From the NCBI RefSeq assembly GCF_014851865.1, contig NZ_JACVAM010000002.1, positions 186,001-250,000 of the forward strand: a DNA stretch of 64,000 nucleotides, written 5' to 3'. The translations under genes were made by a program, and so were the position numbers. Position 1 is the stretch's first letter. Each line of letters opens with the position of its first letter. Below, piece by piece: positions 14,854 through 31,642 of this stretch. Source of the DNA: Pseudomonas sp. PDM16 (GTDB lineage Bacteria; Pseudomonadota; Gammaproteobacteria; Pseudomonadales; Pseudomonadaceae). The notes beneath the pieces are model-generated. The model searched no databases. It had not been told where the DNA came from and worked only from the letters and a program-made list of their open reading frames with translations.

Positions 14854-14867
14854 TACCAAAGTAGTAG
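14854..14867 (-). promoter_or_regulatory. TACCAAGG-type motif before CXXCW gene
   Basis: TACCAAAGTAGTAG on the plus strand, containing the dyad TAC-CAAA-GTA, 75 bases before the start of the minus-strand CXXCW gene. Candidate operator for one of the two LuxR-type regulators. Confidence 0.45.
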
Positions 14868-14891
14868 CCGGCTGACCGGCGGGTCGGCTGT

Positions 14892-15686: not shown

Positions 15687-16414
15687 GCGGCGACCTCGTG
15701 GCTGGTCAGGTGATGGAAGGCCGCGGAAAGGTCGCCGCCGTGATCGGTGCCGATCGCCGCGGCATTCCCGCAGGCGATTAAGCGGCCGCGGTCGAGGATC
15801 AGCAGGTCGTCGTCGCCCTGCACCTCGTCCAGCAGGTGGGTGGTCCACAGCACGCTGAGGTCCTGCTCGCGGCACAGCTGGCGCACATGAGTGTTGAGCG
15901 CCAGGCGCGCCGCCGGATCGAGGCCGGCGCTGGCCTCATCGAGCAGCAGCAGGCGCGGGCGGTGAAGCAGGGCGCGGGCGATCTCCACCCGCCGCCGATG
16001 CCCGCCATTGAGGGCGCGTACACGCTCGTGGCGGCGTTCGCCGAGCTGCTGGCGGGCCAGTTCCTCGTCGATGCGCCGGCTTGCCTCGGCGCGTGCCATG
16101 CCGTGCAGGGCGGCGTGGTAGCGCAGGTTCTGCTCCACCGAGAGGTCGAGGTCCAGGGTGCTCTGCTGGAACACCACGCCGAGGCGGCGCAGTACCTCGC
16201 GCGGGGCGCGCCGCAGGCTATGGCCGTCGACCAGAATCTCGCCCGCCTGCAGGTCGTAGAGGCGGGTGAGCAGGGCGACCAGGGTCGATTTGCCGGCGCC
16301 ATTGGGTCCCAGCAGTGCGGTGAAACGACCGGGCTCCAGGCTGAAAGCCACGCCGTCCAGCGCCTGGCGGGCGCCGTAGCGGAAACTCAGGTCCCGAGCG
16401 AGCAGGCGGCTCAC
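15683..16414 (-). CDS. ABC transporter ATPase, PQQ-alcohol system
   Basis: A 243-residue ATP-binding subunit with Walker A LLGPNGAGKST, Walker B LLLLDEASAGLD and switch His in 'VLWTTHLLDE'. The signature loop is LNGGHRRR rather than LSGGQ, a form I associate with this subfamily. GTG start (16414) overlaps the stop of the beta-propeller gene (GTGA). Forms a pump with the permease downstream. Confidence 0.88.
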   Translation of the reverse strand: MSRLLARDLSFRYGARQALDGVAFSLEPGRFTALLGPNGAGKSTLVALLTRLYDLQAGEILVDGHSLRRAPREVLRRLGVVFQQSTLDLDLSVEQNLRYHAALHGMARAEASRRIDEELARQQLGERRHERVRALNGGHRRRVEIARALLHRPRLLLLDEASAGLDPAARLALNTHVRQLCREQDLSVLWTTHLLDEVQGDDDLLILDRGRLIACGNAAAIGTDHGGDLSAAFHHLTSHEVAA

Positions 16415-17382
16415 GGAGTCACCACCACGCCCCAGGGATAGCGACCGACCTTGATCGACTTGGTCACCTTGAGCGAGTCGAGGTCGATTACCGAGACGTC
16501 GCCGCTGACCCCGTTGGTGCTCAGCAGGAGTTTCTCGTCCGGGCTGAAAGCCATGTGCCAGACACGCCGGCCGACCAGCAGGTAGTCCAGCACCTCGAAG
16601 GTCTTGGCGTCGACCACGGCGATATGGTTGGCCGGGCCGAGTGCGACGAAGGCGTACTTGCCGTCGCTACTGAGCTTGATACCGACCGGTTGTACCTTGT
16701 CCGGGTGCACGCCCTTGATCTTGAAGGTGAGCACCTTGAGCGGCTGGCGGTTGGCGGTGTCGATCACCGTGACCGTTCCGCCGATTTCCGAGCTGGCCCA
16801 CAGGCGCGAGCCGTCTTTGCTGAACTCGACATGCCGTGGGCGCTGGTCAACCAGGGTGTTGTCCACCAGGGTCTGGGTGGTGGTGTCGATCCAGTGCAGC
16901 ATGTTGGTGGTTTCACTGGTGTTGATCGCCCACTTGCCGTCGGGGCTCACCGCCATGCCCTCGGGCTCTACGCCCACATCGATCTGCGCCAGTACCTTGT
17001 CGGCCTTGACGTCGACCACCGTCACCAGCGCATCGTCCTCGTTGGAGATGTACAGCCACTGGTCGTTCGGGTGCAGGGCGAACTGCTCGGGGTCGGCTCC
17101 GGAGGGCAGCTCCTTGATGATCTTGCGCGTGGCCAGGTCCATCACCTGCACCGTGTCCGAGTCGCTGGCGCAGATGTACAGCAGCGTGTTTTCGTGTGAC
17201 AGGGCCAGGCCACGTGGGCGCTTGCCGACCTCGATGGTTCCGGTGACCTTCAGGGTATCCAGGTCGATGACGCTGAGGTTGTTGTCCTTCTCGTTGGATA
17301 CGTAGGCGGTAGCGGCCTGGCTTGCGACGCTGGCGAGCAGCAGGGGGAGGGCCAGGAGCGGCAGGAACGGTGGACGGAGCAT
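16411..17382 (-). CDS. PQQ-dependent catabolism-associated beta-propeller protein
   Basis: A 323-residue periplasmic protein: signal peptide 1-23 (…SQA-A), then seven YVTN-type blades with repeats such as 'YVSNEKDNNLSVIDLDTLKV' and 'VIDTANRQPLKVL'. It lacks PQQ-binding tryptophan-docking motifs, so it is a propeller companion, not a dehydrogenase. Located between the binding protein and ATPase genes and overlapping the ATPase, so it likely works with the ABC system. Confidence 0.87.
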   Translation of the reverse strand: MLRPPFLPLLALPLLLASVASQAATAYVSNEKDNNLSVIDLDTLKVTGTIEVGKRPRGLALSHENTLLYICASDSDTVQVMDLATRKIIKELPSGADPEQFALHPNDQWLYISNEDDALVTVVDVKADKVLAQIDVGVEPEGMAVSPDGKWAINTSETTNMLHWIDTTTQTLVDNTLVDQRPRHVEFSKDGSRLWASSEIGGTVTVIDTANRQPLKVLTFKIKGVHPDKVQPVGIKLSSDGKYAFVALGPANHIAVVDAKTFEVLDYLLVGRRVWHMAFSPDEKLLLSTNGVSGDVSVIDLDSLKVTKSIKVGRYPWGVVVTP

Positions 17383-17414: not shown

Positions 17415-17678
17415 TCAGCGCGCTGGTTCTTCGGCGACGGGGATGCTGGCCAACAGTGCGGCGGCCTGGTGGTCTTGCCAGCGCTCGGCGCAGTCTTCAA
17501 GGCGGCTGCGCGGGGCGCTTCCGCCACTCTGTGCTGCCAGCCGTGCGTAGAGGCATGGCAGGCGCTGGCTGCTCACCAGATATGCGCTGCGCTGTGCTCC
17601 CTCTGGCTCCGGTACGCCGAGTACCAGGCCCCCGCCGGCCAGCGCTGGCAGCAGCCCGGCCGCCAGCAGCAGTTTCAT
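17415..17678 (-). CDS. Small exported hypothetical protein in ABC operon
   Basis: An 87-residue protein with a signal-like N-terminus (MKLLLAAGLLPALAGGG), two cysteines (Cys42 in RLPCLYARL, Cys63 in LEDCAERW) and a helical remainder. Its ATG overlaps the binding-protein stop by four bases, strong evidence it is expressed. Probably a small periplasmic accessory subunit; not recognised. Confidence 0.7.
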   Translation of the reverse strand: MKLLLAAGLLPALAGGGLVLGVPEPEGAQRSAYLVSSQRLPCLYARLAAQSGGSAPRSRLEDCAERWQDHQAAALLASIPVAEEPAR

Positions 17679-18871
17679 GAGGCGGCTCCGGCCAGGTCGC
17701 AGCTGCTCTCGGCACGATCATCGCCGAGGGTGTCGAGCTCGCTGTCGGGATGCAGGAAGCCGTCCTGCGGTGAGGTCGTGACCAGGGCGCGTGGCTGTAC
17801 CACGGGAATCGGCTGGCGCAGCTGGCCGTCCCATGAGCGGTAGCTGAGCTTGCGGCCCTTGAAACCGTCGATCGGCAGTTGCTCGTCGAGCAACAGGCTG
17901 CGTATCGCCAGCGGTGCCGCATCGCGGCTGCGGGTGACGGCGGTGGCAATGCTGCGCACGGCGATCCAGGCGGCGAAGTCGCGGTCGTTCATCCAGCGCC
18001 CGGCGTGCTCCTCGAAGCGCTTCTGCAGCTGCGCCGCTCCGTAGGTTTCCACGCTCTTGTGCCAGCCGGTGGGCGTCAGTCCCTGAGTGCCGGCCACTGG
18101 CCGTGGGTACCAGGTCTGGTAGGGTACGTACTCGCCGAAGTCACCGCGCTCGTCGGCGACCAGCACGACGTCGTACTCCGTGGTCTGGGTGAAGAGCGGC
18201 ATGTCGGCCTGGGCGCTGCGACGCTGGTCGTTGTCGAAGCTCCACGGCTTCTCGGCGACGATACGCAGACCGAAGCGCTTGGCCGAGCGCCGCAGGGCAT
18301 CGGCGTAGCGCTGGTCATCCGGAGTCTGGCCGACGATCAGCAGCAGGCGCTGCCATTGTCGAGTGGCGAGGAACTGCATCAGCGCGTCGGTGAGCATGGC
18401 GCGGCTGGGCAGGCTGTGCAGCAGGTTGGCCTGGCACACACTGCGGCGCAGGTCGTCGTCCGGGCTGCCGGCATTCAGCAGCAGGCTGTCGGGCATGGAC
18501 TTGGCTAGCGCTGTGAGCTGCGCGGCCGGGGCGTTGACCACGAACAGGCGCACGCCCTCGGCATGCAATGCAGCGGCACGCTCCAGCAAGTGCTCGGGGT
18601 TCTCCGCCTGCACCGTGTCCAGGTGGTAGCGTTGCTTGAGGAAGCGGCCGGTACTGTTGCTGTCTTCGATGGCCAGTTCGGCCCCGCGCAGGCCTGCGTC
18701 GAGCGGCTCGGGGATGACATTGGAGAGCACCGGCCCGGAGTCGGGCTGCCAGGCCAGGTAGGCGATGCGGACCTGCAACTCGCCGCCCGCCGCGTAGGCC
18801 TGGCAGGCAACGAAGGCGGCACTGGCAATGGCCAGCAGATAGATCAGGGCATGCATGGCGAGCTGGCGCAT
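17675..18871 (-). CDS. ABC substrate-binding protein, PQQ-alcohol system
   Basis: A 398-residue periplasmic binding protein with a signal peptide (1-27, …AYA) and a Leu/Ile/Val-type binding fold ('LFVVNAPAAQLTALAK', 'LLLNAGSPDDDLR', 'LLLIVGQTPDDQRYADALR'). Matches the family of binding proteins restricted to PQQ alcohol dehydrogenase systems. GAGGAG precedes the ATG at 18871. First gene of the operon; a TACCAAGG motif lies 81 bases upstream, shared with the divergent cupredoxin gene. Confidence 0.87.
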   Translation of the reverse strand: MRQLAMHALIYLLAIASAAFVACQAYAAGGELQVRIAYLAWQPDSGPVLSNVIPEPLDAGLRGAELAIEDSNSTGRFLKQRYHLDTVQAENPEHLLERAAALHAEGVRLFVVNAPAAQLTALAKSMPDSLLLNAGSPDDDLRRSVCQANLLHSLPSRAMLTDALMQFLATRQWQRLLLIVGQTPDDQRYADALRRSAKRFGLRIVAEKPWSFDNDQRRSAQADMPLFTQTTEYDVVLVADERGDFGEYVPYQTWYPRPVAGTQGLTPTGWHKSVETYGAAQLQKRFEEHAGRWMNDRDFAAWIAVRSIATAVTRSRDAAPLAIRSLLLDEQLPIDGFKGRKLSYRSWDGQLRQPIPVVQPRALVTTSPQDGFLHPDSELDTLGDDRAESSCDLAGAAS

Positions 18872-18951
18872 GGGCGGCTCCTCTAATTCTTGTCGCCAGC
18901 ATAGGAACAGCCCGGACCGCGCGAAATATGCAGAAAGTAGTGCTGAGCCAG

Positions 18952-18965
18952 TACCAAGGTAGGAG
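18952..18965. promoter_or_regulatory. TACCAAGG-type motif in divergent promoter
   Basis: TACCAAGGTAGGAG, with dyad TAC-CAAG-GTA, in the 154-base region between the binding-protein gene (minus) and the cupredoxin-like gene (plus). It is 81 and 60 bases from the two start codons and could control both. Confidence 0.5.
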
Positions 18966-19025
18966 AACCTCGGGGCGCCGCAGTCCCTAGCATGGAGTCC
19001 ACAACAATAATTCGAGGACTCCGCC

Positions 19026-19463
19026 ATGCATGTCACCAAACACCTGCTGTTTCTGGTTCTGCTGCTGGTCAGCCTGGCTGGCCTGGACAAGGTCATGGCC
19101 GCCGGTGACCTGACTCGCAAGACTCAGGCGCTGCCCGACCTGGTCATGGGCTCGGACGACAGCGACTACTTCATGTCGCAGCACGAGTACCGTCTGGAGA
19201 CCGGCAAGGCCTACCAGCTCAAGGTGATCTCCAACGGTCAGAAGGAATACGCCTTCCAGGCTCCGCAGTTCGCCACGTCGATCTTCCTGCGCAAGGTCGA
19301 GGCCGGCGGAGTGGAGATCAAGGCGGTGACCCTGAACGAGCTGGAATTCGAGGATGCCGGCGAGGCCGAGCTGTTCTTCGTACCGATCAAGCCGGGACGT
19401 TTCCCGTTCTATGCCAAGGGCCTGGAAGGCAAGGGCATGCAGGGTCACTTCGTGGTCGAGTGA
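19026..19463 (+). CDS. Cupredoxin-like periplasmic protein lacking copper ligands
   Basis: A 145-residue exported protein (signal peptide 1-25, …VMA-A). The rest has the cupredoxin fold pattern 'YQLKVISNGQKEYAFQAPQF' and 'AELFFVPIKPGRFPFY'. In copper cupredoxins the last loop has Cys…His…Gly-Met; here it reads Y-A-K-G-L-E-G-K-G-M (129-138), so Cys and His are gone while Met138 stays. It overlaps the sensor kinase that follows (TGATG), hence may sense or deliver something to it in the periplasm. Confidence 0.8.
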   Translation: MHVTKHLLFLVLLLVSLAGLDKVMAAGDLTRKTQALPDLVMGSDDSDYFMSQHEYRLETGKAYQLKVISNGQKEYAFQAPQFATSIFLRKVEAGGVEIKAVTLNELEFEDAGEAELFFVPIKPGRFPFYAKGLEGKGMQGHFVVE

Positions 19464-20716
19464 TGAGCGCGCTCGGTCGTATCAACCTGCTGGTCAGCCT
19501 GTTCTTCGCCGTCGTCACGCTGATCTGCATGGCCATCCTGTTGCGCCAGGCCGGCGACGATGTTCATCGTGAGCTGGCCGCCGCTCAGGGAGTGGTCGAC
19601 TATCTGGCCGACAGCGTACGCCGCTCTCCGGACAGCCTGCCGCCACACCTGGGGCAGAGCCTGCGCCATGTGCGTGCGGAGTGGCTGGCGGCCGGGCAGG
19701 CGGTGCCGCCGGAGGCCGGGCCCGATGATTGGCTGGGGCGCTGGCTCTACCCTGAGGTGGCGCCGGCCCGGCTTATCGCCCTCGACGACGGCAGGCGCTT
19801 GCGCCTGGCGGTCGACCCCGGTGACGAGATCGACGAGGTCTGGGATTCGCTGCGTCAATTGCTCGGCCTGCTCGGTCTATCGCTGCTGCTATGTCTGCTG
19901 GCGATCCGCTGGGCGGTGCGCCACGCACTCGGCGTGCTGGAGGAGCTGCTTACCGGCCTCCAGCAGATTTCCCAGGGACAGCTGGACACCAGGCTGACCA
20001 GCCATCGCCTGCCGGAGGCACAGCGCCTGGCCGGTCACTTCAACCGGATGGCCAGCGCCCTGCAGCATGCCGAGGCGGAGAACCAGCGCCTCAACCAGGC
20101 CCTGCTGCGCCTGCAGGAGCACGAACGCAACCGCCTGGCGCAGACCCTGCACGACGACCTGGGCCAGTACCTGGCCGGCATTCGCGCCCAGGCGTGCCTG
20201 TTCGGCCTGCTCGCAGAGAATCCGCAGGGTGTGCGCGACGCCGCGCAGAGGCTGGAAGCGCATTGCGTACAACTGCAGGAAGGCTTCCATGCTCTGGTTC
20301 GCGACCTCTATCCGGTAATGCTCGAACACCTGCCGCTGCGGCAGGCGGTGTGCCAGCTCGCCGAGCAGTGGCAGGGCGCCCAGGGCATCGATTGCCAAGT
20401 GCACCTGATCGGCGAGGTGCCGGAGCCGAGTCAGGAGGCCAAGCTGCATCTCTACCGCTTGCTGCAGGAGGCCCTGACCAACGTTGCTCGCCATTCTGGT
20501 GCGAACCGGGTGCGCATGCGCCTGCAACAGCGTGGCGGCCAGTTGCGGCTGTTGTTGCGCGACAACGGTCATGGTCGCCCGGCCGCTCGCCGGGGCATCG
20601 GCCTGCGATCCATGTGCGAGCGTGCCCGTTGCCTGGGTGGAGAGCTGCATTACCGGGGCCGCCCGGGACGTGGCTGGACGCTATATCTGAACATTCCCTT
20701 GGAGGAACGGACATGA
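19463..20716 (+). CDS. Membrane sensor histidine kinase, EraS/PedS2-like
   Basis: A 417-residue NarX-type kinase: membrane segments at about 8-28 and 133-150 enclosing a 100-residue periplasmic domain, HAMP (150-205), HisKA_3 box 'HERNRLAQTLHDDLGQYL' with His230, and a HATPase domain ending in 'RRGIGLRSMCERARCLGG'. ATG 19463 overlaps the cupredoxin stop. Pairs with the regulator behind it (four-base overlap). Position and neighbours fit EraS of P. aeruginosa and PedS2 of P. putida; PedS2/PedR2 is reported to mediate the lanthanide switch between pedE and pedH. The periplasmic domain ends in an acidic run (DPGDEIDEVWD, 118-128) that could bind a metal; this is inference. Confidence 0.82.
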   Translation: MSALGRINLLVSLFFAVVTLICMAILLRQAGDDVHRELAAAQGVVDYLADSVRRSPDSLPPHLGQSLRHVRAEWLAAGQAVPPEAGPDDWLGRWLYPEVAPARLIALDDGRRLRLAVDPGDEIDEVWDSLRQLLGLLGLSLLLCLLAIRWAVRHALGVLEELLTGLQQISQGQLDTRLTSHRLPEAQRLAGHFNRMASALQHAEAENQRLNQALLRLQEHERNRLAQTLHDDLGQYLAGIRAQACLFGLLAENPQGVRDAAQRLEAHCVQLQEGFHALVRDLYPVMLEHLPLRQAVCQLAEQWQGAQGIDCQVHLIGEVPEPSQEAKLHLYRLLQEALTNVARHSGANRVRMRLQQRGGQLRLLLRDNGHGRPAARRGIGLRSMCERARCLGGELHYRGRPGRGWTLYLNIPLEERT

Positions 20717-21366
20717 AGATCCTGCTGGTGGACGATCACGCGGTGGTGCGCCAGGGCTATGCCAGCCTGCTTGGCGCGCTGCTGCCGGATGTGCAGATCA
20801 GCGAAGCGGCCAGTGGCGAGGAGGCACTGGCCCAGGTGCAGGTGCAGATTCCCAACCTGGTGGTGCTGGATATCGGCTTGCCGGGCATCAGCGGCCTGGA
20901 AACCTGTCGGCGCTTGCGCCAGCGGCTGCCGCAGCTGCCGGTGCTGTTCTTCAGCATGCACGAGGAGCTACCGCTGGTGCGCCAGGCGCTGGATGCAGGC
21001 GCGGCCGGTTACCTGAGCAAGCGCTGTGCGCCGGATGTGCTGGTCGAGGCTGTACGCCGGGTGCTTTCCGGCTACCCCTACATCGAGCAGTTGCTGGCCA
21101 CCCAGCTCGCCTGCCAGAAGACTCCGGAGCCAGAAGGCGACCCGCGCCTTGCCGGCATGACGCCGCGCGAGATGGAGATATTCATCATGCTCGCCCGTGG
21201 CCTGCCCACGAGGCAGATCGCCGAGCGTCTGTGCATCAGCGGCAAGACCGTGTCGAACCACATGACCCTGCTGAAGAACAAGCTGGGTGTCGACTCGCTG
21301 GCCGAGCTGGTGCACCTGGCCATCGACACCGGTGTACTGCGTGTCGGCGAGCGCCAGTCGGCCTGA
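20713..21366 (+). CDS. LuxR-family response regulator, EraR/PedR2-like
   Basis: A 217-residue response regulator with receiver Asp53 ('LVVLDIGLPGISG') and LuxR helix-turn-helix at about 148-205 ('GMTPREMEIFIMLARGLPTRQIAERL'). ATG 20713 overlaps the kinase stop (ATGA), so the pair is co-translated with the cupredoxin-like gene as a three-gene unit. Expected to control the dehydrogenase genes to the right, by analogy with EraR/PedR2. Confidence 0.87.
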   Translation: MKILLVDDHAVVRQGYASLLGALLPDVQISEAASGEEALAQVQVQIPNLVVLDIGLPGISGLETCRRLRQRLPQLPVLFFSMHEELPLVRQALDAGAAGYLSKRCAPDVLVEAVRRVLSGYPYIEQLLATQLACQKTPEPEGDPRLAGMTPREMEIFIMLARGLPTRQIAERLCISGKTVSNHMTLLKNKLGVDSLAELVHLAIDTGVLRVGERQSA

Positions 21367-21376
21367 ATAGTGTTGT

Positions 21377-22075
21377 TCAGGGTGTGCGGTGCAGGGTGTT
21401 GAGGTGGTAGAAGGTGGCGCGCCCGCCTTCCGCTTTGCCGCCAGCGTTGTCCTGCACATAGGCGCCGGCCTTGAAGTAGAGCTGCTCTCGGCTCCAGCCA
21501 GAGGCGATCTGGCGATAGTAGGAGCCGTCATCGTCGTCGCTGTAAACGGTGATGCCCAGGCGGCCGCTGGCAGTCAGGCGCAGTCGATAGGCAAAACGCT
21601 CGTCGAGGGTCACGTCGGAGACCAGCGCGATGTTCTGCACATGGCTGTCGTCCGGGTGCTTGCGTACCAGTGCCTCTATGCGCCCGCTGTTGCGTTCCGG
21701 CCGGAAGTGGTACTGCAGCTTGATCAGTGGCGTACCGACATCGCCAGGTCGATTGACCGCATGGATCTGGCCGATCACCAGCTTGTTCTTGCTCGGCACC
21801 TGGTTGACCGAGAGTACGGCGCTCAGGATGTTGTCCGCGTCGTGGTGGTACCAATTGCGCAATTGGCCGTTCGGCCAGGTCTCGCGCAGTTCGCTGCGGG
21901 GATAGCTGGAGTTGAGAGTGCGCGATCCGCTCACCGGCACCCAGAAGCGCACGCTGCTGTCGCGCTGCGGGCGAAAGTACTGGCTGCTGTAGCCACGGTT
22001 GAGGCGCTCGGTGGTGATCAGCGTGGTGGATTCGGTCGCCGGAATCGTCAGGTTCCAGGTGGAGAGATCTAGCAT
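21377..22075 (-). CDS. Alginate lyase, polysaccharide lyase family 7
   Basis: A 232-residue single-domain PL7 lyase. All three signature blocks are present: R60-SELRE, Q103-IHA and Y200-FKAGAYVQ. The QIH form (rather than QVH) is usually linked to guluronate-containing substrates. There is no signal peptide: the start MLDLSTWNLTIP follows AAGGA at good spacing, so the enzyme appears cytoplasmic or uses another release route. It sits among alcohol-oxidation genes without obvious functional link. Confidence 0.85.
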   Translation of the reverse strand: MLDLSTWNLTIPATESTTLITTERLNRGYSSQYFRPQRDSSVRFWVPVSGSRTLNSSYPRSELRETWPNGQLRNWYHHDADNILSAVLSVNQVPSKNKLVIGQIHAVNRPGDVGTPLIKLQYHFRPERNSGRIEALVRKHPDDSHVQNIALVSDVTLDERFAYRLRLTASGRLGITVYSDDDDGSYYRQIASGWSREQLYFKAGAYVQDNAGGKAEGGRATFYHLNTLHRTP

Positions 22076-23055: not shown

Positions 23056-23700
23056 TCACCACCCTTTCGGGCAGTTGGTGCAGCCCTCCATGTAGGCGTC
23101 CTGGAAGTTACCGAAACGTGTGCGGGTGCCGGTGAGGTCGGCGTTTTCGAGGTTCGACCCACTCAGCTTCACTTCCTGCAGGTTGGCATCGCTGAGGTTG
23201 GCACCCTTGAGGTCGGCCTTGCTCAGCCAGGTCATCTCCAGATCGGCGGCGACCAGTCTGGCGTCGTGCATCTTGGCGCCGGACAGGCGAGCGAACTCCA
23301 GGTTCGCGGCGGACAGGTCGGCACCCTGGAACTGCGCAGCCTGGGCGAACAGGCCCCAGCCCTGCACGGCGACCAGCTTGGCCTGACTGAAATCGGCCAG
23401 GCGCAGGTTGCTCTGCTGCAGGCTCGCGCGGGTCAGGTTGGCTTGTTTGAGGTTGGCCTTTTCCAGGTTGGCTAGGTCCAGCGTGGTGTGGCGCAGGTCC
23501 GCGCCGGATAGGTCGGCACCGGACAGGTCCATGCGACGCATGTCCTGGTTGCGCAGGTTGGCACCCTTTAGATTGGCGCCTGGACAGTGGCTGCCGGGTT
23601 CGATGCGGCAGCCGTCGATCACCAGAGGCTCGTCATCGGCAAGGGCGTAGCTGCCGGCCAGCAGTAGGGCGGCCGGAAGAATCAGGTGCAGGTACTTCAT
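23056..23700 (-). CDS. Exported pentapeptide-repeat protein
   Basis: A 214-residue periplasmic protein: signal peptide 1-21 (…ALA-D), then about 30 A(D/N)LXX pentapeptide repeats (LKGANLRNQDM, LSGADLSGADL, LEKANLKQANL …) forming a right-handed quadrilateral beta-helix, interrupted by 'VAVQGWGLFAQ' near the middle. Four cysteines at the ends (CRIEPGSHC, CTNC) probably cap the helix. Sits downstream of pedE in the same direction, as the pentapeptide gene PP_2673 does in P. putida. Confidence 0.85.
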   Translation of the reverse strand: MKYLHLILPAALLLAGSYALADDEPLVIDGCRIEPGSHCPGANLKGANLRNQDMRRMDLSGADLSGADLRHTTLDLANLEKANLKQANLTRASLQQSNLRLADFSQAKLVAVQGWGLFAQAAQFQGADLSAANLEFARLSGAKMHDARLVAADLEMTWLSKADLKGANLSDANLQEVKLSGSNLENADLTGTRTRFGNFQDAYMEGCTNCPKGW

Positions 23701-23805: not shown

Positions 23806-25677
23806 TCAGCGGCTGGCGGTCTTGTTGTCCCAGTTCGGCAGCTTGAACACCCAGAACGAACCACCCTGGGCAACCGGCTTGGTCAGCTCGGCCATGTCGC
23901 CGCCCCACAGCGGTACGGCGCCGCCGTAACCGGTGGTCACGCCGATATATTGCTCGCCATCCTGTTCCCAAGTGATGGGCGGGGAGACGATGCCGGTACC
24001 GACCTGGAACTTCCACAGCTCCTTGCCGTTCTTCGCGTCGAAGGCCTTGAAGTAGCCGTCGCCGGTGCCGGTGAACACCAGGTTGCCCTTAGTCGCCAGC
24101 ACGCCGGCCCACAGTGGCAGGCGCTCCTTGTGCTCCCATACCACTTTTCCGGTGGTCGGGTTCATCGCGCGCAGGATGCCGACGTGATCGTCATACAGGC
24201 GCTTGATACGGAAGCCCATGCCCAGGTACGCGGAACCCTTCTTGTAGTGCGGCTCCTCGGCCCAGTAGTCCTCTTTCCAGTGGTTGGCCGGCACGTAGAA
24301 CAGGCCGGTGTCCTGGCTGTAGGCCATCGGGTTCCAGTTCTTGCCGCCGAGGAACGGCGGTGAGACTTCCACCGACTTGCCGCGTGCCTGGCCTGGCTCC
24401 GGCTTCGGCGGACGCTGGCCCTCGTTTTCCACCGGGCGACCGGTCTTCAGGTCGATGTGGCTGGCCCAGGTGATCTTGTCGACGAAGGGGAAGGCGTTCT
24501 GCAGCTTGCCGTTCTTGCGGTCGACCACATAGAAGAAGCCGTTGCGGTCGGCGTGGGCTGTGGCCTTGACGGTCTTGCCGTCCTTGTCCTTGTAGTCGAA
24601 CAGCACCAGTTCGTTGTTGCCGGAGAAGTCCCAGGCATCGTTCGGCGTGTGCTGGTAGAACCACTTCACCTCGCCGGTGCTCGGGTCGACGCCGACCTGG
24701 CCGGAGGTATACAGGCTGTCATAGTCGTGCGGGTTGCCACCGTCGGAGGTGCGCGCCCAGCCGTTCCACGGCGCCGGATTGCCCGCGCCGACGATGATGG
24801 TGTTGGTCTCGGCATCGAAGCTGGCGCTCTGCCACGGGGCACCGCCGCCCTGGCTCCAGGCCTCCTTCTTGCCGGTCGGGTGGTTGGGATCATCTGGCCA
24901 GCTCGGCGCCTTGACGTCGCCGGTCGGGGTGCTGTCCTTGCCGTTCAGACGACCCATATGGCCTTCGACAAAGGGGCGCATCCAGACTTCTTCACCGGTA
25001 TCCGGGTCGCGGGCGAACAGCTTGCCGACCACGCCGAACTCGTCACCGGAGCTGCCATGGATCAGCAGCACCTTGCCGCTTTTGCCGTCCTTCACGATGG
25101 TCGGCGCGCCGGTCATGGTGTAGCCGGCACCGTGGTCGCCGAACTTCTTCTTCCACACAACCTTGCCGGTGTCCTTGTTCAGCGCCACGACGGAGGCGTC
25201 GAGGGTGCCGAAGAAAATCTTGTCGCCGTAGATGGCGGCGCCGCGGTTGACCACGTCGCAGCATGGGCGGATGTCGTCCGGCAGGCGGTGGTTGTAGGTC
25301 CACAGGCGTTTGCCGGTCTTGGCGTCGAGGGCGAACACGCGGGAGTAGGAGCCGGTCACATAGATCACACCGTCCCTGACGATGGCCTGGGATTCCTGGC
25401 CGCGCTGTTTTTCGTCGCCGAAGGAGAAGGACCAGGCCGGGGTCAGCTTGAATACGTTGTTGTCGTTGACCTGGGCCAGGGGGCTCCAGCGCTGGGCGTT
25501 GGTGCCCAGGCCATACTGCAGCACGTCACCGGTGGTGGTATGGTCGTTGGCGATGTCGTCCCAGGTCACCGATTTGGCGAAGACGCTGCCGGACGACACC
25601 AGAGCGAAGCCGAGAATCAGGCTCTGCACGGTGCGCGCCAGCGGGGTGGCAGTGCTGGGGAGTGTTGTTCTTGTCAT
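23806..25677 (-). CDS. pedE: PQQ-dependent ethanol dehydrogenase, calcium type
   Basis: Quinoprotein alcohol dehydrogenase (ExaA/PedE/QedH), oxidising ethanol and other short alcohols in the periplasm with PQQ as cofactor. From ATG 25677 it is 623 residues with signal peptide 1-34 (…VFA-K). Eight-bladed propeller with W motifs, adjacent-cysteine pair 'RPCCDVVNRG' for the disulphide ring at PQQ, and catalytic Asp350 in 'AWDFSGNNE'. The residue two further on is Ser352, the calcium-type pattern. An in-frame ATG upstream at 25692 is possible. Divergent from cytochrome c550 with a shared control region. Confidence 0.93.
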   Translation of the reverse strand: MTRTTLPSTATPLARTVQSLILGFALVSSGSVFAKSVTWDDIANDHTTTGDVLQYGLGTNAQRWSPLAQVNDNNVFKLTPAWSFSFGDEKQRGQESQAIVRDGVIYVTGSYSRVFALDAKTGKRLWTYNHRLPDDIRPCCDVVNRGAAIYGDKIFFGTLDASVVALNKDTGKVVWKKKFGDHGAGYTMTGAPTIVKDGKSGKVLLIHGSSGDEFGVVGKLFARDPDTGEEVWMRPFVEGHMGRLNGKDSTPTGDVKAPSWPDDPNHPTGKKEAWSQGGGAPWQSASFDAETNTIIVGAGNPAPWNGWARTSDGGNPHDYDSLYTSGQVGVDPSTGEVKWFYQHTPNDAWDFSGNNELVLFDYKDKDGKTVKATAHADRNGFFYVVDRKNGKLQNAFPFVDKITWASHIDLKTGRPVENEGQRPPKPEPGQARGKSVEVSPPFLGGKNWNPMAYSQDTGLFYVPANHWKEDYWAEEPHYKKGSAYLGMGFRIKRLYDDHVGILRAMNPTTGKVVWEHKERLPLWAGVLATKGNLVFTGTGDGYFKAFDAKNGKELWKFQVGTGIVSPPITWEQDGEQYIGVTTGYGGAVPLWGGDMAELTKPVAQGGSFWVFKLPNWDNKTASR

Positions 25678-25865
25678 GTTTGCGGTTCCCATTGGTTGAT
25701 GGACACGGGGTCGGTCGGCGAGCCGGCGGCCCGGTGCATCGATAGTGGGATCAGGCGGGGAGGCGGAATACGGAAAAGCTCCCGCGAGTGTCGGGAAAAA
25801 TGCCCGAACGGGACATGACTTGGGCTTGCTGCGAAAGGGTCTGGCGAGGCATTCAGCCAGGCTAC

Positions 25866-25879
25866 TACCAAGGGACTAG
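25866..25879. promoter_or_regulatory. TACCAAGG-type motif between pedE and pedF
   Basis: TACCAAGGGACTAG inside the larger dyad TACTA…TAGTA (25863-25881). The 359-base region 25678-26036 contains no gene and must hold both divergent promoters; this is the only strong motif I see in it, 157 bases from pedF and 189 from pedE. Confidence 0.55.
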
Positions 25880-26036
25880 TACCTGGCCACCAAAGCAGCA
25901 TTCAGGCGCTGTCGGGCCATTCCTAAGATGCGGACAAGACGCACGGAGGCTGTACACGGCGATGGTCACTCATCGATCCGTGGGCAGGCTCCCGCAAGCG
26001 TTTGCCTTGCACTGCATTTGATGAGGATGGACAGCA

Positions 26037-26474
26037 ATGAACAAGAAGAATATTTCCCGCGCTCTGCTGATCTGCGCTGGCCTTGGTTTCTCCGGCCTGG
26101 TTCTGGCCCACGGTGACGTGACCCCGCAGGCGGTCAACGTCGACGGTCTGGAGCCGCTGGGCAAGGAATGGCGCGACGAGAACCCCTACCGCGCGCCCTA
26201 CGCCAATAACAAGCTGGCGGTCGAGATCGGTACTTCCGCCTACAACCAGAACTGCGCTCGCTGCCATGGCCTGGAGGCCATTTCCGGTGGTATCGCCCCC
26301 GACTTGCGCTACCTCGAAGTGGGTGCCGAGGGTGACGAATGGTTCAAGGAGCGTGTGATCAACGGTGCGGTTCGCGACGGTGCCGTCTACATGCCGAAGA
26401 TGGCCGACTTCCTCAGCCAGGAAGCGCTGTGGGCGATCCGCTCCTACCTGGACAGCGTGCACACCGAGGAGTAA
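26037..26474 (+). CDS. pedF: Cytochrome c550 electron acceptor of quinoprotein dehydrogenase
   Basis: A 145-residue periplasmic c-type cytochrome (ExaB/PedF). Signal peptide 1-24, haem motif C73-A-R-C76-H77, sixth ligand probably Met119 or Met122 in 'VYMPKM'. Takes electrons from PedE/PedH toward the oxidase. Starts a plus-strand series of five genes; the next start is three bases after its stop. Confidence 0.92.
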   Translation: MNKKNISRALLICAGLGFSGLVLAHGDVTPQAVNVDGLEPLGKEWRDENPYRAPYANNKLAVEIGTSAYNQNCARCHGLEAISGGIAPDLRYLEVGAEGDEWFKERVINGAVRDGAVYMPKMADFLSQEALWAIRSYLDSVHTEE

Positions 26475-26477
26475 GCC

Positions 26478-27362
26478 ATGCGCCTGCTGCTGGGCTGTCT
26501 GCTGTGCCTCGCGCTGCTGGTCGGGCAGGCCCAGGCCAAGGTGCGGCCGTACGACGACATCGTCGCATCGGGCGTGCTCAAGGTGGCGGTCTACGACAAC
26601 TTCCCGCCCTACAGCGAGCTTCGTGACGGCCAGCCACACGGCATCGACGTGCGGTTGGCCGAGCGCCTGGCAGCCGGCATGGGGCTGAAGCTGGAACTGA
26701 TCTGGGTGGTACCCGGTGAGAAGCTCGACGACGACCTGCGCAACTACATCTGGAAGGGCCACTACATGCGCCCGAACCTGCTCGCCGACGTGATGCTGCG
26801 GGTGCCGTATGACCGCGACTACTCGGCCAAGCGCAACGAGCTGGGTGAGCTGGTCAACGAGCAGGTGGTGATGTTCGCCCCCTATCAGCGCGAGCGCTGG
26901 CAGGTGGCCTACGACAGCCGACGTCTGAAGGAGGTGCCAAGCATCGCGGTGTTCTCCTATCACCCGATCGGCGTCGAGGTGGACAGCGTGCCGTCCTTCT
27001 ACATGACCTCGGTGTTCGGCGGTCGCATGAGCCGTAACACCCACCATTACCCGAGCGCCTCACAGGCTTTTGCGGCGATGCGTGGCGGTGAGGTGGACGC
27101 GGTGATGGCCATGCGTGGCGAGATCGACGGGCTTCTGCATCAGGCTGGCGACGAGCGGCTGCGGCTGGCGACCAACGCCTATCCGGAGATGGGCCAGCAG
27201 GAGTGGGACATCGGCATGGCGGTACACGAAAGCAATCGCCAGCTGGCCTATGCCCTCGAGGAGACGCTCGACGGGATGATTCGCTCGGGCGAGATGACCA
27301 GTCTGTATGGCGGGCAGGGCCTGCAGTACGAGTTGCCCGGTCTCTATCAGGATGTCGAGTAG
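26478..27362 (+). CDS. Quinoprotein-associated MxaJ-like binding protein
   Basis: A 294-residue periplasmic protein of the solute-binding family 3 (signal peptide 1-20, …AQA-K; 'GVLKVAVYDNFPPYSELRDGQPHGIDVRLAERLAAGMG'-type N-terminus). It belongs to the MxaJ-like group found next to quinoprotein dehydrogenases; MxaJ is thought to help assemble or activate the enzyme rather than import a solute. No ABC permease follows it, which fits that view. Confidence 0.87.
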   Translation: MRLLLGCLLCLALLVGQAQAKVRPYDDIVASGVLKVAVYDNFPPYSELRDGQPHGIDVRLAERLAAGMGLKLELIWVVPGEKLDDDLRNYIWKGHYMRPNLLADVMLRVPYDRDYSAKRNELGELVNEQVVMFAPYQRERWQVAYDSRRLKEVPSIAVFSYHPIGVEVDSVPSFYMTSVFGGRMSRNTHHYPSASQAFAAMRGGEVDAVMAMRGEIDGLLHQAGDERLRLATNAYPEMGQQEWDIGMAVHESNRQLAYALEETLDGMIRSGEMTSLYGGQGLQYELPGLYQDVE

Positions 27363-27375
27363 GCCAGGAGGTCGT

Positions 27376-28122
27376 ATGTCCCGCATGTGGTGTCTGCTGT
27401 CTCTGCTGCTTGCCTGCACGGTGCAAGCGGGGGAGATCGATCCGCTGAATTCGCCTATGTGGGAGTTCCATCGCCAGCGCCTGCTCGGCGTCGCGCCGGT
27501 GCAGTTCGATGAGCGGGTCAGGGTGCTGGCGCCACCGTTCGCCGAAGACTCGCGCCAGGTGCCGATCGAGATCGACGCCCGCGACCTTGGCCGGCCGGTG
27601 CAGCGCATGCTGGCCTGGGCCGAGCTGAATCCGATCCCGCATATATTCACCCTGCACAGCGAGTCCGAGCGCCTGCTGCCGTTTATCGCGGTGCGCATCC
27701 GTGTCGAGCAGGCCACGGCGATCCGCGCCGCTGTGCAGACCGAGGATGGTGTCTGGCATGTCGGCTCAACCCGTGTCGATGCCGCCGGCGGCGGCTGTAC
27801 AGCGCCTAGCGTGGTGCGCGCTCAGGAAGGCTGGGAGGAGCGCCTGGGCCAGGTGCTCGGTGGGCGTTACCCGCAGGGCGACCTGGAGCGCCTGCGTCTT
27901 TCGGTGGCCCACCCGATGGACAACGGCCTGGTGGGCGGCATCCCGGAGTTCTACCTGGAGCGCGCCGAGCTGTTCGACCAGGGCGGCAAGCGCCTGGCGC
28001 TGCTCGAGCTGTTTCCCGCGGTGAGCGAGAACCCGACTCTGGGCTTCGAGCTGCGCGGTGGCGGCGAGACCGAGCTGCGCTTGCGCGACAACAATGGCAA
28101 CGAGTTCGCTGCCGAGCTCTGA
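27376..28122 (+). CDS. Quinoprotein dehydrogenase-associated SoxYZ-like carrier
   Basis: A 248-residue exported protein (signal peptide 1-18, …VQA-G) combining SoxY-like and SoxZ-like parts. The carrier cysteine is kept as Cys141 in 'DAAGGGCTAPS', and the C-terminal half (about 160-248) has the SoxZ-like fold. AGGAGGT sits before the ATG at 27376. In the Sox system SoxY carries substrates on its cysteine; here the cargo is unknown, but the family occurs only with PQQ dehydrogenases. Confidence 0.85.
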   Translation: MSRMWCLLSLLLACTVQAGEIDPLNSPMWEFHRQRLLGVAPVQFDERVRVLAPPFAEDSRQVPIEIDARDLGRPVQRMLAWAELNPIPHIFTLHSESERLLPFIAVRIRVEQATAIRAAVQTEDGVWHVGSTRVDAAGGGCTAPSVVRAQEGWEERLGQVLGGRYPQGDLERLRLSVAHPMDNGLVGGIPEFYLERAELFDQGGKRLALLELFPAVSENPTLGFELRGGGETELRLRDNNGNEFAAEL

Positions 28123-28155
28123 AGCTTCCCTCTTCCGTTCTCTGGAGTACTCCCG

Positions 28156-28488
28156 ATGATCAAGGTCAGCGTTCTGTATCCCAACCGCCCCGGCGTGCGT
28201 TTCGATCTGGGTTACTACTGCGGCACGCACATGGCCCTTGTGCGCGAGTGCCTGGGTGAGGCCTGCCTAGGCGTGGCCGTGGATCAGGGCTTGGCCGGCG
28301 GTGCGCCCGGTAGCCCAGCGCCGTTCGTGGTGGTCGGGCATCTGTTCTTCGTCAGCCTGGACAGCTTTCAGCGGTGTTTCGCCGAGCATGGCGAGCGGAT
28401 CATGGGCGACCTGCCCAACTTCACCGACGCCGAGCCGCAGGTGCAGATCAGCGACGTGCGGCTCGATTGGCGCGCGCCGGAGTGCTGA
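28156..28488 (+). CDS. EthD-family small protein
   Basis: A 110-residue cytoplasmic protein of the EthD/dimeric alpha-beta barrel type: starts 'MIKVSVLYPNRPGVRFD', contains 'YYCGTHMALV' and 'HLFFVSLDSFQRCFAEH'. EthD-like proteins are accessory factors in some degradation pathways. It lies between the SoxYZ-like and metallohydrolase genes with short gaps, so it is in the same transcript. Confidence 0.82.
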   Translation: MIKVSVLYPNRPGVRFDLGYYCGTHMALVRECLGEACLGVAVDQGLAGGAPGSPAPFVVVGHLFFVSLDSFQRCFAEHGERIMGDLPNFTDAEPQVQISDVRLDWRAPEC

Positions 28489-28490
28489 GC

Positions 28491-29426
28491 ATGCGCGGCC
28501 TGTTGCTGCTGTTCGCCCTGTTGGCTGCCGGCTCCGCCCAGGCGCAATTCGACTATCGGCTGCAACCCCGGCAGATCGCGGCGGACACCTGGCTGCTGGA
28601 AGGCAGTACCGACAACTTCGCCGAAAGCAATGGCGGCAACATCGTCAACACGGCCTTCATCGTCACCGCCGAGGGTGTACTGGTGATCGACAGCGGCCCC
28701 TCGAAGCGCTACGGCGAGGCCATGCGTCAGGCTATCGCCGGGGTCACCGACAAGCCGCTGTACAAGGTTTTGCTGACTCATCACCACCCGGACCATGTGC
28801 TGGGCAACCAGGCCTTCGCCGGCGTGCCCATCGCGGCCCTGGCTGGCACCCGCGAGCTGCTGAGCCAGCAGGGCAACGCCATGGCCGAGAATATGTACCG
28901 CCTGGTTGGGGACTGGATGCGCGGCACCGAGGTGGTGCTGCCCGACGAGACCGTCGAGCCTGGTGTGCAGGACATCGGCGGGCATCGTCTGCGCCTCTTG
29001 GCCCTGAGCGGCCATACAGGTGCCGATCTGGCGATCCTCGACGAGAGTACTGGCGTGCTGTTTGCCGGCGATCTGGTGTTCTACCAGCGTGCCTTGACCA
29101 CGCCGAACAGCCCGGGACTGGAAATCTGGCAGGCCGATCTGGAGACGCTGCAGAAGCTGCCGTGGCGGCTCATCGTGCCTGGGCACGGGCCGCTGGCCAG
29201 CGATGCCGCACCTTTCGCGCAGATGCACGACTACCTGGGCTGGCTTGATGGCCTGCTGCGTGGCGCTGCTGGTCGCGGTGAGGACATGAACGAGGTGATA
29301 CGCGCACCCATTCCCGAGCGTTTCGCCGCCGTCAGCCTGAGCCGCTACGAGCTGATCCGCAGTGTCAGCCACCTGTATCCGCGTTACGAGACGCAGGTGC
29401 TGAGGCGGATCGATCGCCGCGAGTGA
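28491..29426 (+). CDS. Quinoprotein relay system zinc metallohydrolase
   Basis: A 311-residue exported metallo-beta-lactamase-fold protein (signal peptide 1-18, …AQA-Q) related to SoxH. Zinc motif THHHPDH at 96-102 (His97, His99, Asp101, His102), 'SGHTGADLAI', 'FAGDLVFY' and 'PGHGPLA' supply the remaining metal ligands. Family members accompany the SoxYZ-like carrier; together they may form a repair or thiol-relay system for the dehydrogenase. ATG two bases after the EthD stop. Confidence 0.88.
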   Translation: MRGLLLLFALLAAGSAQAQFDYRLQPRQIAADTWLLEGSTDNFAESNGGNIVNTAFIVTAEGVLVIDSGPSKRYGEAMRQAIAGVTDKPLYKVLLTHHHPDHVLGNQAFAGVPIAALAGTRELLSQQGNAMAENMYRLVGDWMRGTEVVLPDETVEPGVQDIGGHRLRLLALSGHTGADLAILDESTGVLFAGDLVFYQRALTTPNSPGLEIWQADLETLQKLPWRLIVPGHGPLASDAAPFAQMHDYLGWLDGLLRGAAGRGEDMNEVIRAPIPERFAAVSLSRYELIRSVSHLYPRYETQVLRRIDRRE

Positions 29427-29733
29427 AGGGCGACACTCAGCGCATCGAGGACGTCGATGTGCTGTGGAAATAGCGCTTGGCGAGTCTGCAAGAGAGGTCT
29501 GGCGACCTTTTCGCGAACATGCTCGGCGCGGCGAGGCGGTGTTCCTGCCGAACTGCTGCAGCGGTCACTTCAAGCTCAGTGGAACAACCCATTCCTGTTG
29601 CCGGCACGCGCATAGCTCGGATCGGTCTCTTGGGGCTCGTTGGATCGACGGCCTTTGGCATGTCTTGCCCGGAGCATGCAGGGCGCACTGCGATAGCCCT
29701 TGGTGCCGAATCGCCTGCGGCTGGGGGTATTGC

Positions 29734-29747
29734 TACCAAGGAACTAG
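29734..29747 (+). promoter_or_regulatory. TACCAAGG-type motif before pedH
   Basis: TACCAAGGAACTAG, 110 bases before the pedH start and nearly identical to the site between pedE and pedF (13 of 14 bases). The 431-base stretch 29427-29857 contains no convincing gene; this motif and the promoter it implies are all I can identify there. Confidence 0.55.
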
Positions 29748-29857
29748 GGAAATCGGCACAGCGTTGGATAGGCGCAGGGCGGCGTCGGTCCAAGAATTTG
29801 CGGCAGACCGGGACTATTTCCCGGTTGCATAACAATGAACCCGCAGAGGTAGCCGCA

Positions 29858-31642
29858 ATGATGCACACAGGTCTTCGCAAGCCCCTCGCTCTGACGGCGC
29901 TGTCAGCCGCTCTGGCCCTGTCCAGCCTGGCCGCTAGGGCGGCGGTCACGGACGAAGAGATCATCAACGACGCCAAGACCCCGGACCAGGTGGTCACCAA
30001 CGGCCTCGGTACTCTGGGTCAGCGCTACAGCAGCCTGAACACCCTGAACAGCGAGAACGTCACTCAGCTCCGCCCGGTCTGGGCATTCTCCTTCGGTGGC
30101 GAGAAGCAACGTGGCCAGCAGGCCCAGCCGCTGGTGAAGGATGGTGTGATGTATGTCACCGGCTCCTACTCGCGGGTTTTCGCGGTCGATGCGCGCACCG
30201 GCAAGAAGCTCTGGCAGTACGACGCACGCCTGCCCGACGGCATCATGCCGTGCTGCGACGTGATCAACCGCGGCGTAGCGCTGTATGACGACCTGGTGTA
30301 CTTCGCCACTCTCGATGCCAAGCTGGTCGCCCTGAACAAGGACACCGGCAAGGTGGTGTGGAAGAAGACCGTGGCCGACTACAAGGCAGGCTATTCGATC
30401 TCTGCCGCACCGATGATCGTCAAAGGCAAGCTGATCACCGGTGTAGCCGGTGGCGAGTTCGGTGTGGTCGGCAAGGTCGAGGCCTACGATCCGAAGAACG
30501 GCGAGTTGCTGTGGAGTCGTCCGACCGTGGAAGGCCACATGGGCTATGTCTACAAGGACGGCAAGGCTGTCGAGAACGGCATCTCCGGCGGCGCACCGGG
30601 CAAGACCTGGCCGGGTGACCTGTGGAAGACCGGAGGTGCGGCTCCGTGGCTGGGTGGCTACTACGACCCGAGCACCGATTCCATCCTGATCGGTACCGGC
30701 AACCCATCGCCATGGAACTCCAACCTGCGTCCGGGCGACAACCTGTTCTCCGCCTCGCGTCTGGCGCTGAACCCGGCGGACGGCTCGATCAAGTGGCACT
30801 TCCAGACCACCCCGCACGACGGCTGGGACTATGACGGCGTCAACGAGTTGGTGTCGTTCGACTACCAGGACGGCGGCAAGGCCGTGAAGGCGGCAGCCAC
30901 CGCGGACCGTAACGGCTTCTTCTATGTGCTCGACCGCACCAACGGCAAGTTCATCCGCGGTTTCCCCTTCGTCGACAAGATCACCTGGGCCAAGGGCCTG
31001 GACAAGGATGGCCGACCGATTTACGACCCGGCCAACCGTCCGGGTGCTCCGAGCGGTGACGCCAAGAAGGGCAACACCGTGTTCGTCGCGCCGTCCTTCC
31101 TTGGCGGTAAGAACTGGATGCCGATGGCGTACAGTCAGGACACCGGTCTGTTCTACGTGCCTTCCAACGAGTGGGGCATGGACATGTGGAACGAGGGTGT
31201 GACCTACAAGAAAGGCGCAGCCTACCTAGGCTCTGGCTTCACCATCCATCCGCTCAACGAGGAATACATCGGTGTGCTGCGCGCGATCGATCCGAAGAGC
31301 GGCAAGGAGGTCTGGCGTTACAAGAACTACGCGCCTCTCTGGGGCGGGGTGCTGGCCACCAAGGGCAACCTGGTGTTCACCGGCAACCCGGAAGGCTATC
31401 TGATGGCCTTCGATGCCAAGTCCGGTAAGAAGCTCTACGAGTTCCAGACCGGCTCCGGCGTGATCGGCTCGCCGATCACCTGGGAGATGGATGGTGAGCA
31501 GTACGTCTCCGTGCTTTCCGGCTGGGGTGGTGCCGTGCCGCTGTGGGGTGGCGAGGTCGCCAAGCGGATCAAGGACTTCAACCAGGGCGGCATGCTCTGG
31601 ACCTTCAAACTGCCGAAGGACCTGGTTGCGACCAAGCACTGA
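29858..31642 (+). CDS. pedH: PQQ-dependent alcohol dehydrogenase, lanthanide type
   Basis: A 594-residue quinoprotein alcohol dehydrogenase, signal peptide 1-28 (…ARA-A). Adjacent cysteines '[10 protein letters not shown]' are present. The catalytic Asp324 is followed by Tyr and a second Asp326 in 'GWDYDGVNE'; an Asp at this place marks lanthanide-dependent enzymes (PedH, XoxF), as against Ser in PedE. It is therefore predicted to need rare-earth ions. Length and context match P. putida PedH (595 residues). Its own leader and the TACCAAGG site suggest separate control from the pedF operon. Confidence 0.93.

Follow-up and report, generated by a model that had tools for sequence, protein, structure and literature searches.

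The ped cluster of Pseudomonas putida KT2440 (PP_2663 to PP_2679) encodes two quinoprotein alcohol dehydrogenases, PedE, with a Ser at its metal site, and PedH, with an Asp, and purified PedH is reported to be active only with lanthanides (PMC5487730). Deletions and reporters in KT2440 indicated that PedS2 and PedR2 switch pedE and pedH inversely and that Asp53 of PedR2 is needed; PedH was described as having a sensing role of its own, with the activator of pedH still unknown (PMC6115532). A 2024 review notes that exactly how the switch operates has yet to be established (PMC11845868). Here we describe the same system in a 64,000-nt stretch of DNA from Pseudomonas sp. PDM16 (GCF_014851865.1, NZ_JACVAM010000002.1, positions 186,001 to 250,000, forward strand; hereafter the window, within which feature coordinates are given) and tentatively propose that a stripe of acidic residues beside the second membrane helix of PedS2 senses the lanthanide.

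Three groups of described systems bear on this locus. In the ExaA system of P. aeruginosa (exaA, eraSR), whose EraR corresponds to KT2440 PedR2 (PMC6115532), there is, by the accounts given in PMC6115532 and PMC12997753, no pedH and the kinase EraS is cytosolic, whereas the window has both enzymes and a membrane-bound PedS2. MxaY of Methylomicrobium buryatense is likewise the membrane kinase of a lanthanide switch, but it shares 25% identity with KT2440 PedS2 and has a different sensor domain, LapD/MoxY (PMC6115532). In ColS, VgrS, PmrB, and BqsS an acidic ExxE pair stands in the periplasmic domain, close to the membrane and next to the second membrane helix (E126/E129 in ColS, PMC4074579), as in PedS2; the ExxE of P. 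putida ColS is needed for iron(III) and zinc sensing (PMC4074579), and VgrS binds iron(III) through its ExxE (PMC5231390).

The PDM16 locus is a member of the ped family

A preliminary description of the window had recognized two quinoprotein dehydrogenases with accessory genes between them, and both open reading frames (ORFs) proved to be open and full length where it had placed them. The best solved relatives of PedH (ORF 29477–31642, plus strand; TIGR03075, 794 bits) are 6zcv_A (1135 bits) and 6zcw_A (1128 bits), labeled quinoprotein ethanol dehydrogenase in the search listing and presumably structures of PedH itself. Its metal-site sequence W-D-Y-D is of the Asp-x-Asp type, and the numbering Asp324-Tyr-Asp326 is right from ATG 29858, most likely the start and the point at which the leader peptide begins; a coding extension upstream of this ATG was discarded, as translated matches about 40 codons upstream coincide with conserved leader DNA. 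PedE (ORF 23806–25692, minus strand, 628 aa; TIGR03075, 778 bits) has as its best solved relative the quinoprotein ethanol dehydrogenase 1flg_A (1255.9 bits), which is ExaA of P. aeruginosa (PMC5487730). In its motif NDAW-D-F-S-GNNE a Ser takes the place of the second Asp, and the residues are Asp350-Phe-Ser352, as had been given, if translation starts at ATG 25677 (the Asp is D355 from ATG 25692). By these sequence features PedE is assigned to the ExaA/PedE calcium type and PedH to the PedH/ExaF lanthanide type.

The sensor had been located about 3 kb left of pedE; the kinase ends 3.1 kb from the left end of pedE, and the regulator directly follows it. A rare-earth switch like that of P. putida had also been predicted, and the sequence features that we tested are all present in the KT2440 order, namely Ser versus Asp in the two enzymes, His230 and two membrane segments in PedS2, Asp53 in PedR2, PedA1A2BC, PedR1, PedD, PedF, PedG, and the genes associated with PedH. 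Because the gene order matches the list published for KT2440 (PMC12997753), that reading was right and the system was already known: the cluster is a published, textbook case, of which the window is another member. With KT2440 it shares the gene order, the residue types at the metal sites, Asp53 of PedR2, and PedA1A2BC. We consider it quite probable that the region is a ped cluster with a rare-earth switch of the kind proposed below.

Co-inheritance of the regulators with the two enzymes

We surveyed 298 Pseudomonas genomes, the window's own included, for matches to either enzyme at E ≤ 1e-150, scoring at most the four best candidates per genome. PedE or PedH is present in 143 of them, with 78 carrying both (among these the window's), 41 PedH only, and 24 PedE only. 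PedR2 is found in 75 of the 78 genomes with both enzymes, in all 24 with PedE only, and in one of the 41 with PedH only. Matches to PedS2 number 75/78, 4/24 (two of these without the sensor part), and 1/41 in the same classes, from a search with the full-length query at E ≤ 1e-45 that therefore leaves the kinases of most PedE-only genomes uncounted; for a full-length, membrane-spanning PedS2 the counts are 75/78, 2/24, and 1/41. The single PedH-only genome with PedR2 and PedS2 (G264) is 77% complete. Three both-enzyme genomes gave no match to PedR2 or PedS2, namely G059 and G297, in 530 and 1200 contigs, and G157, which is 88% complete. G100, in 650 contigs, has a PedR2 match and neither enzyme.

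The association of PedR2 with PedE recurs independently. A tree of 74 PedH genes shows at least 13 changes between presence and absence of PedE on branches with good support, and PedR2 follows PedE in 12 of 12 independent pairs (p 0.0005, 53 loci). These 53 of 81 loci comprise 20 without PedE, five with PedE elsewhere in the genome, and the rest with PedE and PedR2 inside the stretch examined; loci bearing PedE and showing no PedR2 in the stretch were omitted as of unknown status, a selection that leans toward agreement and from which the genus-wide counts are free. Absence of PedE was rechecked with a PedE query in the 25 named genomes that have none beside PedH, of which 20 proved to be without it. 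In those 20 no PedR2 match exceeds 42% identity, and the five with PedE elsewhere have PedR2 at 70 to 78%. Some species are represented both among the named loci and among the genus genomes.

From the co-inheritance counts and the independent pairs we conclude that PedR2 belongs to the calcium enzyme, and from the counts that the membrane sensor PedS2 belongs to genomes choosing between two enzymes. Three kinases of PedE-only loci were inspected; two (L334, L335) have no PedS2 match and the third (L336) matches the kinase part only. The sensor part alone, used as a query against 57 relatives, was found in six, all of the same genus. In two genomes, G078 and G052, PedR2 is 91 and 89% identical to that of the window, and both are without PedH and the PedS2 sensor part. 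Lanthanide-only Pseudomonas species are common in this sample, 41 of the 119 PedH-bearing genomes being without PedE, PedR2, and PedS2 together, with the 77%-complete genome as the one exception. Species with PedE alone are named in PMC12997753; no statement on Pseudomonas species with PedH alone was found in the accessible text of that review or in the open-access literature searched.

An acidic stripe in the sensor part of PedS2

PedS2 belongs to the HisKA_3 kinases; it has two membrane segments, and its periplasmic part comprises some 100 residues. The predicted outer side carries, directly beside the second membrane helix, the pattern D118-P-x-D121-E122-x-x-E125-x-x-D128, whose five acids are invariant in all 76 full-length PedS2 sequences from the 75 both-enzyme genomes and the 77%-complete one. 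Likewise invariant are D33 and E37, immediately beyond the first membrane helix, and the pattern holds an ExxE, E122-x-x-E125, near the second. The only two full-length PedS2 found in genomes without PedH (G296 and G317) carry D118N, D121A, and D128Q. Of the otherwise conserved columns, they differ at six of nine in positions 118 to 134, versus one of the 22 in the remaining periplasmic region (Fisher 0.0007).

Several points weigh against reading the stripe as a lanthanide site. The six-of-nine test was devised after the change had been seen, and the PedS2 of G296 and G317 are 93% identical, the change probably representing one event. Both retain E122 and E125, together with D33, E37, and the D-G-R of positions 109 to 111. 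The structural model of PedS2 is mediocre (predicted local distance difference test 77, predicted template modeling score 0.36), and the 50 of 825 matches listed from a fold search with it were all kinase structures, none recognizably a lone sensor domain. In the model a helix runs from residue 120 at moderate confidence, and by helical spacing D121, E125, and D128 would lie on one face with E122 beside them.

We nonetheless propose the stripe as the lanthanide site because it is invariant, is changed in PedS2 from genomes without PedH, and is placed like the ExxE of ColS and VgrS, and because iron competes with lanthanum in KT2440, where the authors suspected mismetallation of PedS2 (PMC6839425). 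It could well be the lanthanide receptor itself, although we put this forward tentatively: a helix-borne site at the dimer interface, unrelated to the EF-hands of lanmodulin and derived from the logic of the ExxE iron sensors. Loss of the lanthanide enzyme would then lead to erosion of the site or of the sensor part, with the kinase and regulator kept for pedE. The proposal was not found in the parts of the open-access literature searched, which is not proof of its absence. ColS is a HisKA-type kinase and PedS2 matches HisKA_3 (DesK/NarX/UhpB-like); no shared family membership is claimed, and PedS2 differs further in its longer stripe of five invariant acids and in the lanthanide proposed as its ligand. 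Metal lowers the kinase activity of PedS2 in the KT2440 model, whereas ColS is activated by metal.

An invariant D231-x-x-x-Q235 follows His230. It is similar to the phosphatase motif of HisKA_3 kinases, and the resemblance would fit the phosphatase activity postulated for PedS2. R71 is also invariant and D-G-R111 nearly so. We attempted to map the KT2440 suppressor residues R73, R111, and S178 onto the window's PedS2, but no offset from -3 to 3 fits all of them in any of 78 sequences, their spacing was of no help either, and no claim is made.

Box A and palindrome B

Two DNA elements recur at the ped promoters. Box A, with the consensus TACCAAGGNA(C/G)TAG, stands before pedS2 in 17 of 17 loci, the window included, with at most one mismatch and no match on the other strand. 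With at most two mismatches it is found before pedF in 68 of 70 and before pedH in 77 of 80 named loci; all matches run in the direction of the gene, and the element is retained where a cluster has no PedR2. For KT2440, the promoter of pedS2R2 is reported to require only PedR1, and pedE to require both PedR1 and PedR2 (PMC13390443). Box A is probably the PedR1 site, its most likely role because it precedes the PedR1-controlled pedS2R2 and is kept where PedR2 is missing. A genome-wide regulon was not carried further: CCAAGGNACTAG occurs twice in 5.09 Mb, both times here, and its reversed control three times, while TACCAAGGNANTAG with one mismatch occurs 12 times, four of them in the window, and its control seven times. 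The pqq operon was also dropped as a target, the 14-kb stretch around pqqB holding no box A at one mismatch or fewer and three at two mismatches.

Palindrome B, with the consensus CGGGAANNNTTCCCG, has one copy in the pedH leader and another in the part of the pedE–pedF gap nearer to pedE, where at most one mismatch is seen in 42 of 49 gaps (the window included). It is absent before pedF, at fewer than three mismatches, in 17 of 19 clusters without pedE, and the two exceptions (L061 and L075) have sister loci that keep PedE. In pedH leaders the exact consensus is present in 76 of 77 both-enzyme genomes versus 27 of 40 PedH-only genomes (Fisher 2e-6), the latter without the incomplete G264, the sole PedH-only genome with PedR2; G310, having no usable leader, was dropped. 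The window is the only one of the 77 whose pedH leader departs from CGGGAANNNTTCCCG, despite having PedR2, and its switch may for that reason be weaker on the pedH side.

B is possibly a site for PedR2 that degenerates once the regulator is gone, a reading that is reduced to a trend by correction for the tree and against which a number of results count. Tree-corrected pairs stand at 4.1 versus 0.5 of 13 independent pairs (median p 0.22); the 27 leaders just mentioned keep an exact B without PedR2; and the window is off consensus at both promoters. Control elements in the pedH leaders also differ between the classes, box A being exact in 44/77 versus 9/40 (Fisher 0.0004) and CAATTGTTG in 62/77 versus 24/40 (Fisher 0.026), with no difference for CCAAGAAT (0.11) or the Shine–Dalgarno region (0.56). 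Since two of the four control elements differ as well, part of the difference in B is clade structure. As a plain PedR2 operator B is favored by the raw counts, but the tree-corrected pairs are not significant, and we keep this role as a hypothesis.

It is a real possibility that B forms a hairpin in the leader, or is where the lanthanide-dependent activator of pedH binds, and is not a PedR2 operator. The exact copies in PedH leaders without PedR2 and the lack of significant decay after tree correction speak for such an element; the position of B at pedE and pedH, the two PedR2 promoters of the KT2440 model, argues for PedR2 instead, as does its absence before pedF in most clusters that have no pedE, an argument weakened by a report of some PedR2 effect on pedF too (PMC13390443). 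A genome-wide B regulon was rejected, one-mismatch B occurring at 13 places versus 19 for the control. In most pedH leaders CAATTGTTG lies between box A (at 29734 in the window) and CCAAGAAT; the window has no match to it.

Proposed mechanism

Building on the genes, motifs, conservation, and co-inheritance observed here, we infer metal binding, DNA binding, and the direction of signaling as follows. PedR1, activated by alcohols, would turn on pedS2R2, pedF, and pedH through box A. With no lanthanide present, PedS2 would phosphorylate PedR2 at Asp53, and phosphorylated PedR2 would activate pedE and hold pedH down, as in the published KT2440 model, possibly acting through palindrome B, which is located upstream of pedE and within the pedH leader. 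Periplasmic lanthanide would bind D118, D121, E122, E125, and D128, next to the second PedS2 membrane helix, in a site that may lie at the dimer interface and involve D33 and E37 of the first helix. Binding would turn PedS2 from a kinase into a phosphatase, production of PedE would stop, and PedH, loaded with lanthanide at Asp324/Asp326, would take over. By sequence the parts are intact, and the way they are inherited agrees with the regulatory logic known from KT2440. What is gained is a testable candidate for how a bacterium senses lanthanides, consisting of five named PedS2 residues and two DNA elements; natural genomes without one or the other enzyme give direct comparisons, and a genetically encoded lanthanide sensor domain would be useful in rare-earth recovery.

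A somewhat doubtful but possible alternative is that the stripe is a structural or dimer-signaling element, or that it senses iron(III) or docked PedH instead of free lanthanide. Iron is suggested by the ExxE of ColS (PMC4074579) and VgrS (PMC5231390) and by the competition with lanthanum (PMC6839425), but the one lineage that keeps a full-length PedS2 without a lanthanide enzyme has an altered stripe, and iron is still present there. Docked PedH would agree with the need for PedH itself in most of the induction of pedH in KT2440, but lanthanum is reported to repress PedE in strains without PedH too (PMC6115532).

We regard it as unlikely that the pair of this strain is constitutive, or only partly switched, through diverged B sites and a diverged PedS2/PedR2. 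The window's PedS2 is 55 to 61% identical to the other 75 full-length PedS2 and its PedR2 about 71 to 76% identical to those of other both-enzyme genomes, PedH and the sensor part have disappeared from the closely related G078 and G052, and its pedH leader alone departs from the consensus B; the catalytic and acidic residues inspected in both proteins are intact, however, and one mismatch per B site need not abolish binding.

Least probable is detection of lanthanide in the cytoplasm once PedA1A2BC has imported it, with the periplasmic acids of PedS2 serving another purpose. The presence of the transporter genes would allow this, and a 2026 review, speaking here against our scheme, states that the ions must enter the cytoplasm for detection by PedS2 (PMC12997753). 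In KT2440 without the transporter, however, the lanthanum required for PedH-dependent growth rose about 100-fold while that required for repressing PedE-based growth did not, and the authors concluded that pedH can be transcribed without transport (PMC6839425). Two of three KT2440 PedS2 suppressor mutations fall in the predicted periplasmic part (PMC6115532), and the stripe, which is predicted to face outward, is altered where PedH is absent.

Organization of the cluster

The features of the locus are collected in Table 1. To the left of PedR1 lie PqqF, an ORF without a family match (6321–7730), NosP, the hybrid kinase NahK/PedS1, a lipoprotein, and a DMT transporter, and from PedR1 to PedH the order is PedR1, CXXCW protein, PedC, PedB, PedA2, PedA1, PedS2, PedR2, alginate lyase, PedD to PedG, SoxYZ-like, SoxH-like, and PedH. 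Position is part of the basis for naming PedR1 and PedG. PedA1, PedA2, PedB, and PedC, the putative lanthanide transporter, are all present, and the true start of PedA1 is probably further in than the listed ORF, because the TIGR03863 match begins at residue 132.

Table 1. Positions of ped cluster genes and proposed regulatory elements in the window
Feature	Position	Strand	Remarks
PedR1 (AgmR/ErbR)-type LuxR-family response regulator	13523–14191	-	ErdR/NarL-type match below equivalog cut-offs; name from KT2440 position (PMC12997753 Table 1)
PQQ (pyrroloquinoline quinone)-associated CXXCW/rhodanese-like protein (PP_2666 counterpart)	14234–14920	-	TIGR03865, 215 bits; start uncertain
PedC, ABC permease	14892–15675 (ORF to 15875)	-	TIGR03861, 464 bits
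PedB, ABC ATP-binding subunit	15683–16414	-	TIGR03864, 347 bits
PedA2, beta-propeller protein	16411–17382	-	TIGR03866, 541 bits
PedA1, substrate-binding protein	17675–19120 (ORF as listed)	-	TIGR03863, 502 bits
Box A (TACCAAGGTAGGAG) before pedS2	18952–18965	+	511 bases upstream of the gene
PedS2, membrane sensor histidine kinase	19463–20716	+	HisKA_3, HATPase_c, HAMP; two hydrophobic segments; kinase part DesK/VraS-like
Acidic stripe D118-P-G-D121-E122-I-D-E125-V-W-D128 of PedS2, proposed lanthanide-sensing site	codons 19814–19846	+	five acids invariant, 76/76
PedR2, LuxR-type response regulator	20713–21366	+	Response_reg and GerE; Asp53 present
PL7-type alginate lyase between pedR2 and pedD	21377–22075	-	
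PedD, pentapeptide-repeat protein	23056–23700	-	PF00805
PedE, calcium-type quinoprotein alcohol dehydrogenase	23806–25677 (alternative ATG 25692)	-	TIGR03075, 1flg_A
Palindrome B, pedE side of pedE–pedF intergenic region	25792–25806		CGGGAAAAATGCCCG, one mismatch
Box A (TACCAAGGGACTAG) before pedF, between pedE and pedF	25866–25879	+	
PedF, cytochrome c550	26037–26474	+	TIGR04494 equivalog, 211 bits versus cut-off 122
PedG, MxaJ/XoxJ-like periplasmic binding protein	26478–27362	+	weak TIGR03871 (24 bits), SBP_bac_3, position
SoxYZ-like fused carrier (PP_2677 counterpart)	27307–28122	+	TIGR04557 equivalog, 202 bits
SoxH-like zinc metallohydrolase (PP_2678 counterpart)	28374–29426, probable start ATG 28491	+	TIGR04558, 429 bits
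Box A (TACCAAGGAACTAG) before pedH	29734–29747	+	
Palindrome B, pedH leader	29809–29823		CGGGACTATTTCCCG, one mismatch
PedH, lanthanide-type quinoprotein alcohol dehydrogenase	29858–31642	+	TIGR03075, 6zcv_A/6zcw_A

This order is that of KT2440 (PMC12997753, Table 1) except for PqqF, the alginate lyase, and the two genes between pedS1 and pedR1; the KT2440 list has a porin ahead of NosP. The gene pedI, which directly follows pedH in KT2440, is not found in that place, the next identified gene after pedH being hda at 32382; as ped gene content and arrangement differ among species (PMC12997753), pedI was not treated as defining. PedE, PedF, PedG, the SoxYZ-like and SoxH-like proteins, and PedH occur in the same order and orientation in 46 of 80 named relatives, and many of the others are interrupted by contig ends or are without PedE.

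The two genes between pedS1 and pedR1, outside the KT2440 list, encode an Sbal_3080-family lipoprotein and a DMT-type transporter (12046–13523). The alginate lyase is absent from all 27 named loci that show both of its neighbors, with no match in the other 53, and stands at the same position in G078 (locus L255) with 88% identity. L255 and the corresponding locus of G052 (L256), which have the PedR2 nearest to the window's and are without PedH, show no PedG match between PedF and the SoxYZ-like gene; they retain the SoxYZ-like and SoxH-like genes beside PedE/PedF, which suggests that these genes are not strictly tied to PedH.

A third PQQ enzyme lies outside the window, about 182 kb away on the same contig (C22:25905–27512). 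It is a quinohemoprotein alcohol dehydrogenase with a C-terminal heme motif and the metal-site sequence W-D-F-T (Asp-Phe-Thr), so that it is not of the Asp-x-Asp type, and it is flanked by two genes judged by eye to be aldehyde dehydrogenase-like, about 4 kb before pqqB.

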